NCBI GenBank assembly: GCA_028873075.1
Contig: JAGWND010000004.1
Span: forward strand, 1 to 42,640
Source of the DNA: Bacteroidota bacterium
Lineage (GTDB): Bacteria > Bacteroidota > Ignavibacteria > UBA10030 > UBA8401
Length of the DNA stretch: 42,640 nt
Direction: 5' to 3'
How positions within the stretch are numbered: the stretch's first letter is position 1; every line of letters starts with the position of its first letter. Positions 1 through 29,526 of this stretch are shown piece after piece. Both the position numbers and the translations under genes were made by a program. Under the pieces are notes generated by a model. The model did no database searches and had not been told where the DNA came from. It saw nothing but the letters and a program-made list of their open reading frames with translations.

Positions 1-25
1 CTCTGAAAAAAATTGGTAAAAATGT

Positions 26-49
26 AGTCGCAACCTTCAGGGTGCGACT
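26..49 (-). repeat. Hairpin with T-rich tail downstream of leader ORF
   Basis: The arms AGTCGCA (26-32) and TGCGACT (43-49) form a 7-bp stem, extended inward by CC/GG pairs after one mismatch. On the minus strand it is followed by ACATTTTT and then a second T-run, so it could act as an intrinsic terminator in the leader that begins near 413. It could equally be a REP-like intergenic repeat, because similar short palindromes occur elsewhere in the window. Only the fold is seen; the role is inferred. Confidence 0.5.
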
Positions 50-62
50 GTAGTAGACGAAT

Positions 63-83
63 CCGCAGATATAAAGTCTGCGG
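63..83 (-). repeat. CCGCAGA/TCTGCGG hairpin in leader
   Basis: A perfect 7-bp inverted repeat, 63-69 against 77-83, with a 7-nt loop, lies 27 nt past the stop of the short Cys-rich ORF. The same TCTGCGG word also occurs inside that ORF (minus strand of 144-150), so the 77-83 arm has two possible partners. It may be a regulatory hairpin or one copy of a REP-like repeat. Confidence 0.55.
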
Positions 84-109: not shown

Positions 110-220
110 TTATACAGCTAAGAAGCAACAACAGAGGAAATGTCCGCAGAAGTAGGCGGAGAGATGCTCAAGAACAGGTCTTGAAGCGTAAAAAAGATGT
201 AAGTTTGAAATGTTGTTCAT
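110..220 (-). CDS. Short Cys-rich leader ORF (36 aa), candidate leader peptide
   Basis: This ATG ORF of 36 codons ends in FLCCCFLAV, with three consecutive Cys codons at 125-133 and one more Cys codon at 146-148. It starts just after the SAM-riboswitch terminator. An AGAGG Shine-Dalgarno word, part of the 3' arm of that terminator, lies 10 nt before the ATG. There is no signal peptide and no recognisable domain. Known poly-Cys upstream ORFs in actinobacteria regulate sulfur genes by ribosome stalling when cysteine is scarce; by analogy this may be a cysteine-sensing leader peptide for a sulfur-metabolism gene beyond the left edge. It could instead be a chance ORF. The longer in-frame ORF reaching 358 would run through the riboswitch and is not believed. 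Confidence 0.45.
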   Translation of the reverse strand: MNNISNLHLFYASRPVLEHLSAYFCGHFLCCCFLAV

Positions 221-227
221 AATAAAA

Positions 228-260
228 AAACCTCTTTTGGAAGATGCCCAAAAGAGGTTT
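228..260 (-). terminator. Intrinsic terminator of SAM riboswitch expression platform
   Basis: A perfect 13-bp stem (228-240 with 248-260, 7-nt loop) is followed on the minus strand by a run of T with one A. It lies about 20 nt downstream of the SAM-I aptamer, the standard place for a SAM-dependent terminator. The 3' arm contains AGAGG, which may also serve as the ribosome binding site of the short ORF starting at 220, so the hairpin could control both transcription and translation. Confidence 0.85.
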
Positions 261-277
261 CCTAAATTCAATTTTGG

Positions 278-390
278 TTCATCTTCTGACCCGTTTCGCA
301 GGATCACAGAAATTAGCACCTGACGTCTTAATTTGGTGACCGGTTGCTGTGGTTTCACAGGGTCTGTCCCTCCGCCACTCTCGATGAAGC
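278..390 (-). promoter_or_regulatory. SAM-I (S-box) riboswitch
   Basis: Read on the minus strand, the segment shows the conserved S-box blocks in order: TTCATCGAGAG (P1 and kink-turn side), GGCGGAGGGAC, CCCTGTGAAACC, CAGCAACCGG, CAGGTGCTAATT and closing AGATGAA. P1 is TTCATC with GATGAA. This class binds S-adenosylmethionine and shuts off methionine/SAM synthesis or transport genes when SAM is plentiful. A good promoter lies upstream (421-448) and a terminator downstream (228-260). The controlled gene is not in the window; it must lie left of position 1. Confidence 0.92.
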
Positions 391-420
391 GCTCTGCTTT
401 TCAAAGAAATAACTATTATC

Positions 421-448
421 AATATAATCTTAAAATCGTTTTTGTCAA
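421..448 (-). promoter_or_regulatory. Sigma70-like promoter of the SAM-riboswitch leader
   Basis: TTGACA (minus strand of 443-448) and TATATT (421-426) are separated by 16 bp. Transcription would start near 413, about 20 nt before P1 of the riboswitch. The same hexamers, with 17-bp spacing, occur before rho (33459-33487), which suggests an ordinary housekeeping-type consensus in this genome. Confidence 0.75.
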
Positions 449-27802: not shown

Positions 27803-28390
27803 TTACTTCTGAAACAACTTTAAAGTCATATGGTCTGCACCAATGTTTTCTCCCATCAAATGCGAAATATCTACTACCGCACCATGTTCGATAAACACAT
27901 CATAAAATTTTTTATAATGATCACCCCAATATATCATTGCACAAGCCATTGGTGCCCCTTTACCACCATCTTTGCCATTATCTAGGAAACGAAGACGTGT
28001 GTCGTAAAGAAAACAAATTCCCCTTGCTTTTGTAAAAACATATTTTTTCCAGTGGGTAGTATTTGCAGCAATAGGAACAAGCGCTAAAACTTCTGAACCG
28101 TACTCTTCATAAGCATGGGCACATTTAGCAAGCCAATTTTTTATTGTTGTTCCTCTTTTTTTATCTATGCCGTAAGGAGGATTAACATAAATTTTAGGGA
28201 AATGCCATGACTCCTTCAATCCATCGTGTTTCGGAAGCATATACTCAGTTTTTGCATTAACAATAGAATACTCATTTGAACATGGGTCTAAATGAATTAC
28301 GCCGCCAAAAACTTTTTTGACCGCTTGCACGTATTTGTGCGGTGTGCCCCAGTTTTGACTGAAGGTGTTTATACTTCTGCCTGCACTCAT
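27803..28390 (-). CDS. DNA N6-adenine methyltransferase (phage Dam type)
   Basis: A 195-aa protein matching the phage-type Dam family (PF05869-like): WGTP (14-17), LDPCSNE (34-40, SAM region), HDGLKESW and YVNPPYG (catalytic motif IV NPPY at 70-73). NPPY indicates transfer of a methyl group to N6 of adenine. The sequence is clearly more AT-rich than its neighbours. Its ATG overlaps the stop of the upstream PD-(D/E)XK-like gene by 4 nt (28387-28390), so the two are coupled. It is probably the protecting methylase of a restriction-modification system; the recognition site is unknown. Confidence 0.88.
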   Translation of the reverse strand: MSAGRSINTFSQNWGTPHKYVQAVKKVFGGVIHLDPCSNEYSIVNAKTEYMLPKHDGLKESWHFPKIYVNPPYGIDKKRGTTIKNWLAKCAHAYEEYGSEVLALVPIAANTTHWKKYVFTKARGICFLYDTRLRFLDNGKDGGKGAPMACAMIYWGDHYKKFYDVFIEHGAVVDISHLMGENIGADHMTLKLFQK

Positions 28391-29526
28391 TTTAAAATAT
28401 CAATCCAATTTTTGTTTTGTAACTCTCTTAGCTCATCTTTTAAAGTAAACAGCTTCTTCCTTTTCGGTGAAATAATATTAAACCAACCTTCAATATTGGA
28501 AATGTTGGCAGAAAAATACGAAAGAAGGATTTTGTCTGCTTCAATGTTCATCTGAACTTTCGTGAATTGATTCTTCTTCTTTTCTTCTTTGTAACTTGAA
28601 AGAAATGCCTTCCGCACCGGCTTAAATTTCTTTTTGGGTTTTAGTAGCAATGTTTCAATGAACTGAGCCAGTCCATTGTCAGTAAGAAATAGAAGCCAAT
28701 CATAAGATTGAGCAAGCACTTTAAGCTCTTTATTTGGATTATCGGATGTAAACCAATTTCCATGGTTACTTACTACACCAACAGTAAGAATAAAGCGTTT
28801 TAATAATTCATCATTATGCGAATGAACTATTTCCTCCAACAAATCTACAAAAGGTCTAATAATATACGAACCATCACTTCTGTAAATGATGCCATACATT
28901 TCGCCCTTTTCGTTTCGAATTTTTTGAAGAGAGGATGCCGTTCGGGCTACATATGCACCTTGTTTTGCTTTTTCGATCGTCTGGGGCCCCTTGGTTACTC
29001 CTTCTTCGACGCCAACCCTTTTACATTCAAACATTGCATAAGGTTTGCGACTTTGCTCATAAATATAAAGTTCTATCTCATTTTTCGTAGAAGATTTTAT
29101 ACTGCATAGCAAGAAAGAATTTTCAGATGTTGCTATAGTGCAAGCATTGCGGAGAACTCCTTTGTTCAAAAGATGATTAGATTTATGCTCAAATTTTTTG
29201 AGGTCATAATTCTCGGCTTCAAGCAACTTGAGAACTTTAGTCGTGGTAATTGTATCCCCAGAGTGCACAAAAGTAAGATTGGAGTTTCTAACAACGGGAT
29301 GTAATGAGTATTCGACATTATGAGTAATGTCTGGATTTCCATATTCTTCAAGTCCTCGCTCAATAGAGATTTGATTGTTAAGTCCCCAAGTTTTTAATAG
29401 GTAGTATGTAATAATTTCAACTAGCGTACCTAATGCTCTGCCTGCTGCTTTCTTTGGGTCCTTAGTATGTTTGAATACTTTATTTGCTAATACTTTTTGA
29501 AGCTTATCTACTGATTCGAAGGCCAT
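28387..29526 (-). CDS. Putative type II restriction endonuclease, PD-(D/E)XK-like
   Basis: A 379-aa protein, not assigned to a named REase family. An N-terminal helix GRALGTLVEIITYYLL (E37) is followed by a core with acidic residues in NEIELYIYEQ (E150, E152) and MFECKRVG (E167-x-K169), the order expected for a PD-(D/E)XK nuclease. GVTKGPQTIEKAKQGAYVAR follows directly. The gene is AT-rich, is coupled to an adenine methylase, and sits as a foreign pair inside a metabolic cluster, so a restriction enzyme is the best reading. A different defence nuclease is possible. Confidence 0.7.
   Translation of the reverse strand: MAFESVDKLQKVLANKVFKHTKDPKKAAGRALGTLVEIITYYLLKTWGLNNQISIERGLEEYGNPDITHNVEYSLHPVVRNSNLTFVHSGDTITTTKVLKLLEAENYDLKKFEHKSNHLLNKGVLRNACTIATSENSFLLCSIKSSTKNEIELYIYEQSRKPYAMFECKRVGVEEGVTKGPQTIEKAKQGAYVARTASSLQKIRNEKGEMYGIIYRSDGSYIIRPFVDLLEEIVHSHNDELLKRFILTVGVVSNHGNWFTSDNPNKELKVLAQSYDWLLFLTDNGLAQFIETLLLKPKKKFKPVRKAFLSSYKEEKKKNQFTKVQMNIEADKILLSYFSANISNIEGWFNIISPKRKKLFTLKDELRELQNKNWIDILK

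Follow-up and report, generated by a model that had tools for sequence, protein, structure and literature searches.

A conserved cysteine-ending leader peptide downstream of a SAM-I riboswitch: a candidate two-input metY leader in Ignavibacteriae

The clostridial ubiG operon is under both S-box and cysteine T-box control, and reads SAM/methionine as well as charged tRNA-Cys. The leader described here would likewise bring SAM/methionine and tRNA-Cys signals to a single sulfur operon, whereas ubiG uses a T-box RNA and an antisense S-box and has no serial leader peptide. Structured leaders containing short regulatory ORFs also precede Salmonella mgtA and mgtCBR, where both the signals and the genes are different. 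As in other members of the SAM-I class (RF00162), our locus has an aptamer scoring above threshold, an antiterminator and a terminator, and a methionine gene downstream, except that a conserved peptide ORF intervenes before the gene.

Cysteine leader ORFs whose Cys runs adjoin the stop codon have been predicted in actinobacteria, without a conserved terminator (Seliverstov 2005, PMC1262725); the original prediction for this locus had already pointed to actinobacterial poly-Cys ORFs. Such ORFs were shown to be cysteine-responsive attenuators in M. smegmatis (Canestrari 2020, Mol Microbiol 114:93, as reported in PMC9031893 and PMC13236596). The ORF studied here is similarly short, with Cys codons by the stop and relatives upstream of cys genes, and by analogy may work like these known leader ORFs. 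As described, the actinobacterial ORFs are leaderless and belong to another phylum, whereas the present peptide has a conserved body and a riboswitch upstream. In Rhodobacterales, the uORFC-8-2 motif, a tandem-Cys uORF ahead of cysS, is a predicted attenuator (PMC8632094). It shares the tandem Cys codons but differs in lineage and gene, in the transcription terminator within the motif and in its dominant UGC codons, UGU being fixed here. Poly-Cys leader ORFs and cysS uORFs are already known; the novelty lies in a conserved family of peptides and in its placement in series with SAM-I. That this arrangement was undescribed, as first proposed, agrees with a search of the open-access literature, most subscription papers lying outside it, which returned no account of a SAM aptamer and a cysteine-dependent ribosome gate on one transcript, and no paper containing both 'SAM-I riboswitch' and 'uORF'.

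The SAM-I riboswitch and the layout of the leader

The window, that is the whole stretch of DNA analysed, comprises 42,640 nucleotides and corresponds to an entire contig (C56). On its minus strand, from 448 to 110, are found in order a promoter, a SAM-I aptamer, a terminator/antiterminator and a 36-codon ORF, followed by two hairpins before the contig end:

421..448, minus: sigma-70-type promoter, TTGACA-16-TATATT, 11/12 consensus matches
276..390, minus: SAM-I (S-box) aptamer, RF00162, 74.5 bits, full length (model 1-108)
280..286, minus: 3' strand of P1, GAAGATG, one half of the antiterminator (sequence reading; duplex -12.8 kcal/mol)
240..246, minus: CATCTTC in the terminator loop, second half of the antiterminator (sequence reading and fold)
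224..260, minus: intrinsic terminator, AAACCTCTTTTGG-7 nt-CCAAAAGAGGTTT and a T tract (fold, -20.4 kcal/mol)
110..220, minus: conserved leader peptide ORF, 36 codons, MNNISNLHLFYASRPVLEHLSAYFCGHFLCCCFLAV and stop (profile search, codon statistics)
125..133, minus: terminal Cys codons TGT TGT TGC (sequence reading)
63..83, minus: hairpin CCGCAGA...TCTGCGG, past the leader ORF and before the contig end (sequence reading and fold)
18..49, minus: hairpin AGTCGCACCC-TGAA-GGTTGCGACT, then ACATTTTT (sequence reading and fold)

The original prediction had named a sigma70 promoter and a full SAM-I aptamer. The promoter was found as described, at 448-421, and relatives carry similar TTGACA/TATATT elements in the equivalent position. 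A covariance-model search placed the aptamer well above the RF00162 gathering score (74.5 against 44.4 bits), and this is the only SAM-I copy in the source genome (390-276). GAAGATG (286-280) and CATCTTC (246-240) are exact complements, the terminator arms pair over 13 bp (260-248/240-228), and the antiterminator and terminator are mutually exclusive. The antiterminator duplex can form in 15 family loci, with energies from -9.9 to -16.3 kcal/mol, and includes a compensatory change in one of them (L014), where ACGATGAAC occurs with GTTTATTGT. This conserved pairing indicates that the riboswitch half is a standard transcription-terminating SAM-I switch. Binding of SAM, the predicted ligand, would free the terminator (260-224) and stop transcription; without SAM, the antiterminator (286-280:246-240) would form and transcription would proceed. 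The terminator had also been said to carry a Shine-Dalgarno word in its 3' arm. The terminator stands, but the SD-like word is not kept at the ORF start of relatives, which lies about 50-130 nt past the aptamer.

Since the window is the whole contig, the controlled gene must lie past the contig end, to the left as anticipated. A methionine or cysteine gene had been expected there, and in relatives the leader leads into a PLP enzyme beginning MSTNGKxRHYRFETLQLHAGQ. This is metY (TIGR01326, O-acetylhomoserine aminocarboxypropyltransferase/cysteine synthase), the O-acetylhomoserine/O-acetylserine sulfhydrylase, which scores above the cut-off in both the source genome and G004. In the source genome metY begins 11 bases into a separate contig (C181), as expected if the assembly broke off between the leader ORF and metY, and from this we infer the join of C56 to C181. 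The composite leader of G004 (L013/L067) heads a TusA-like ORF, dsrE2, a third ORF, metY and metX, so that sulfur-carrier genes sit inside a methionine operon; SAM-I is also found ahead of dsrE2-like genes in G066-G068. In G009 (L021), a SAM-I aptamer precedes a gene with no evident methionine role, on a contig with an N run and in a genome that may be mixed. Elsewhere in the window (27803-29526, minus), two adjacent ORFs were noted by eye; the first looks like a phage-type adenine methyltransferase, and the second may be its restriction partner.

The peptide ORF and its terminal cysteine codons

A profile of the leader peptide matched 17 of the 22 genomes that represent this family of uncultured Bacteroidota/Ignavibacteria (E 1e-15 to 1e-24, all <1e-14). 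It is 29-40 residues long, with the consensus MxNISNLHLFYACRPVLEHLSPYFDGNFLCC. Sixteen of the 17 genomes carry a metY-class leader, with SAM-I directly upstream of the peptide in 15/16; the contig of the sixteenth (G021) begins between the aptamer and the peptide ORF. A scan of ~85,000 species genomes yielded 15 peptide loci, all from Bacteroidota/Ignavibacteriae MAGs. Weak matches within the phylum (E >0.002) were treated as noise. No Pfam or NCBIfam family matches the peptide, and none of the viral contigs searched encodes it.

Third codon positions are the most variable in the ORF. Across 16 genomes the pooled pN is 0.12 and pS 0.72 (pN/pS ~0.17), and 65% of codon differences are synonymous, as compared to a mean of 21% and a maximum of 38% in permuted alignment columns (p<=0.001). 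Judged from these codon statistics, the ORF is genuinely coding and under purifying selection on its amino acids, and it is presumably translated. The expectation that a Cys-ending ORF would be retained with synonymous change in relatives sharing the riboswitch was thus borne out. Residues H8, L9, F10, A12, R14, G26 and C30 are invariant, including between paralogues; those preceding C30 sit 4 to 22 positions ahead of it, as conserved tunnel residues of an arrest peptide would.

A relative with the same riboswitch and no such ORF, which would count against the proposal, occurs once among the metY leaders of the family, in G008. The ORF is also absent from the SAM-I-metB-like leaders of G008 and G009. 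Among 26 SAM-I loci from other families of the order, which precede metY, metB-like or dsrE2-like genes, no conserved Cys-ending ORF was found. This distribution suggests that metY leaders acquired the peptide inside the family. The ORF-less SAM-I-metY leaders of the order and of G008 would suit a reading without cysteine input, in which the ORF serves as spacer or as RNA structure and SAM-I alone regulates metY; codon-level selection on the ORF, together with the riboswitch-free paralogues ahead of cysteine genes described below, makes this scarcely credible.

The ORF of the window ends in FLCCCFLAV and had been singled out for its three adjacent Cys codons. The 36-codon ORF and its TGT TGT TGC are present as stated, but relatives usually have a Cys pair and do not keep the third Cys (LCCR, LCCL, LCRR or LC before the stop). 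Conservation ends exactly at the pair, and the tails that follow differ (R, L, CFLAV, CPAAV, RPTAV or GFIHDVCVFN). A single terminal Cys codon remains in G012 (LCRR) and in G019 (LC), the sister of the latter, G021, having LCCR. The variable tail and the one or two Cys codons of relatives indicate that the metY class keeps a short Cys run and that it is the body which stays constant. In G019 (L014/L037), TGT TGA CGC TGA is found where its sister has TGT TGT CGC TGA. Selenocysteine reading of this TGA was considered and rejected: no tRNA-Sec match exceeded the cut-off in G019, and the codon is thus probably a plain stop.

The conserved end also has a nucleotide signature. The block CTC TGT TGT (CTCTGTTGT, Leu-Cys-Cys; 136-128 in the window) is near-invariant, also in riboswitch-free paralogues, while third positions are saturated across the remaining peptide ORF. 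TGT encodes both Cys residues in 36/36 cases, paralogues included, versus 45/126 Cys codons in family ORFs, and the block Leu, whenever it is Leu, is encoded by CTC, which makes up ~20% of Leu codons. The Cys at peptide position 13 is TGC in 8/8 cases of the metY class, and the third terminal Cys, where present, is usually TGC. The fixed block might be explained by slow decoding of UGU through wobble or by base pairing; no single cause accounts for it.

Peptide paralogues ahead of cysteine genes

Paralogues of the peptide occur at three types of locus, in none of which an Rfam search detected a riboswitch. The first, MLNSSNLHLFYACRPALQHDSPYFNGHYLCCCCR, precedes DUF2061-cysH-cysD-cysN (G004, L057); the second, MKNISNIHLFYASRPALRHDSPYLNGHYLCCCH, precedes DUF2061-cysH (G013, L039); and the third, ending in HLFNACRPVLHNDTPCLNGYYPCCC, precedes cysK (G002, L042/L068). 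They end in CCCCR, CCCH and CCC before the stop, with 3-4 terminal Cys codons, and the longer run is thus found ahead of genes dedicated to cysteine. The strongest evidence that the peptide is part of cysteine control, rather than of the riboswitch, is this occurrence before cysteine genes where no riboswitch is present. Together, the loci present a coding short ORF with one to four terminal Cys codons and metY, cysHDN or cysK downstream, as in a leader peptide.

The strong amino acid conservation along the whole length might also be expected of a small trans-acting protein, such as a thiol or metal-binding peptide with a C-terminal Cys pair. However, the peptide heads sulfur-gene transcripts, its C-terminus and Cys number vary and its paralogues stand upstream of different sulfur genes, and we regard this alternative as very improbable.

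The peptide/DUF2061/cysH leader of G013 (L039) has an Rrf2-family regulator immediately upstream (1007-1423); Rrf2 proteins include cysteine regulators. The nine-base Leu-Cys-Cys block recurs in a distant homologue in G367 (L064/L066), a genome from another family of the same class. There, tandem Cys-ending peptides, MDISNTSLFYSGRQVPRNTSIDFSGDCRCCCSL (of uncertain start codon) and MKIFTDTNSFYSNKQTLKHLSSYSNGNFLCCRYR, align gap-free to the family peptide, with a profile E of 2.8e-6 for the second, and precede a secreted-type protein and a TonB-receptor-like gene, with no obvious sulfur gene.

The conserved body of ~24 residues before the Cys pair, seen also between paralogues, raises the alternative of a ligand-induced arrest peptide modelled on TnaC and SpeFL, which sense their own ligands directly. 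With Cys30 placed at the peptidyl-transferase centre, the nascent chain in the exit tunnel would sense free cysteine or a related sulfur metabolite and act via Rho or exposure of the ribosome binding site. Conservation ends at the would-be stall site, and one terminal Cys would be enough in G012 and G019. On the other hand, no known arrest motif was recognised in the peptide, and the 3-4 Cys codons of the cysH/cysK class and the fixed TGT fit codon-level sensing. This form of the idea is unlikely, though it deserves to be weighed. A broader proposal, to which we give a little less than even confidence, is that of a new arrest-peptide family in which a conserved nascent chain, and not the Cys codons alone, turns the ribosome into a cysteine sensor, on its own before cysH/cysK and in series with SAM-I before metY; a single metY leader would then integrate SAM at the level of transcription and cysteine at that of translation.

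Coupling of the peptide to metY and the proposed mechanism

In g8, g9 and G005, the predicted folds join the uORF tail to the metY start, with 14-23 expected pairs. In the two genera g8 and g9, the stretch from the uORF Cys codons through the stop and into the bases beyond it could form a helix with the metY start codon and SD. The G021 leader is an example: UGUUGUCGCUGACAU is predicted to lie opposite AUGUCAGUGAACAACGG, and UUCCU past the stop opposite the SD AGGAA. For two single cases, G002 and G009, the predicted partner of the Cys block is the SD itself (CUCUGUUG:CAACAGAG and UCCUCUGU:ACAGAGGA). A tail and a start from the same leader pair more stably than swapped partners do (permutation p 0.0008), related genomes being treated as independent; intergenic shuffles gave a combined p of 1e-4 and synonymous metY recoding ~0.05, again ignoring relatedness, so that these significances are overstated. 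The terminal block paired against the 28 nt before the start beats shuffled sequences and hardly beats swapped partners, and only the wider block was therefore used for the pairing test. The start-sequestering helix is absent or weak in G003 and in the window's own genus (G006, G007), and a single helix common to all genera is not supported. An RNAalifold consensus from a MAFFT alignment did not recover it either, a small indel in metY codons 4-6 being the probable reason.

The window's own genus instead has hairpins with T-rich tails (49-18 in the source genome, and in G006 and G007), and G014 has one as well. The hairpin at 18..49 is a possible second terminator, and as such shows no conservation in the sister species. 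These hairpins would suit transcription attenuation, in which a stall at the Cys codons blocks a second intrinsic or Rho-dependent terminator before metY; a Rho-dependent route has been proposed for terminator-less cys leaders (PMC1262725). However, such hairpins lack conservation even among members of genus g9, where G016 and G017 have no strong T run, and just 36 nt separate the ORF from the gene in G002. We therefore consider attenuation distinctly unlikely as the general output. With a helix in some genera and hairpins or T-rich stretches in others, the output may differ between genera, and we infer from the folding that the coupling step is not uniform.

We lean, slightly, towards a two-input metY leader in which SAM gates transcription and a cysteine-sensing leader peptide gates metY. 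The original proposal of dual methionine/cysteine control is supported by metY, the coding conservation and the cysH(DN)/cysK paralogues; its cysteine sensing and coupling steps are putative. The sensing step is most likely stalling at the terminal Cys codons, and the output exposure of the metY start. When cysteinyl-tRNA is scarce, the ribosome would stall at the terminal UGU codons, assisted by the nascent chain, and the metY start would stay accessible; when cysteine is plentiful, the ribosome would finish and leave, the region would re-pair and metY translation would drop. Several points stand against this model: conservation of the whole body is unneeded for simple codon-starvation control, G012 and G019 have a single terminal Cys, and the helix is weak or absent in G003, G006 and G007.

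Under the two-input model, metY would belong to a cysteine regulon together with the sulfate-assimilation genes and cysK, which carry this peptide too. Cysteine and methionine synthesis share sulfide at their branch point, and reading SAM by an aptamer and cysteine by the translating ribosome on the same transcript would, if true, constitute a compact two-input gate. The peptide represents an unannotated conserved family, and the conservation of its body offers a testable case of cysteine leader peptides that may be more than codon counters.
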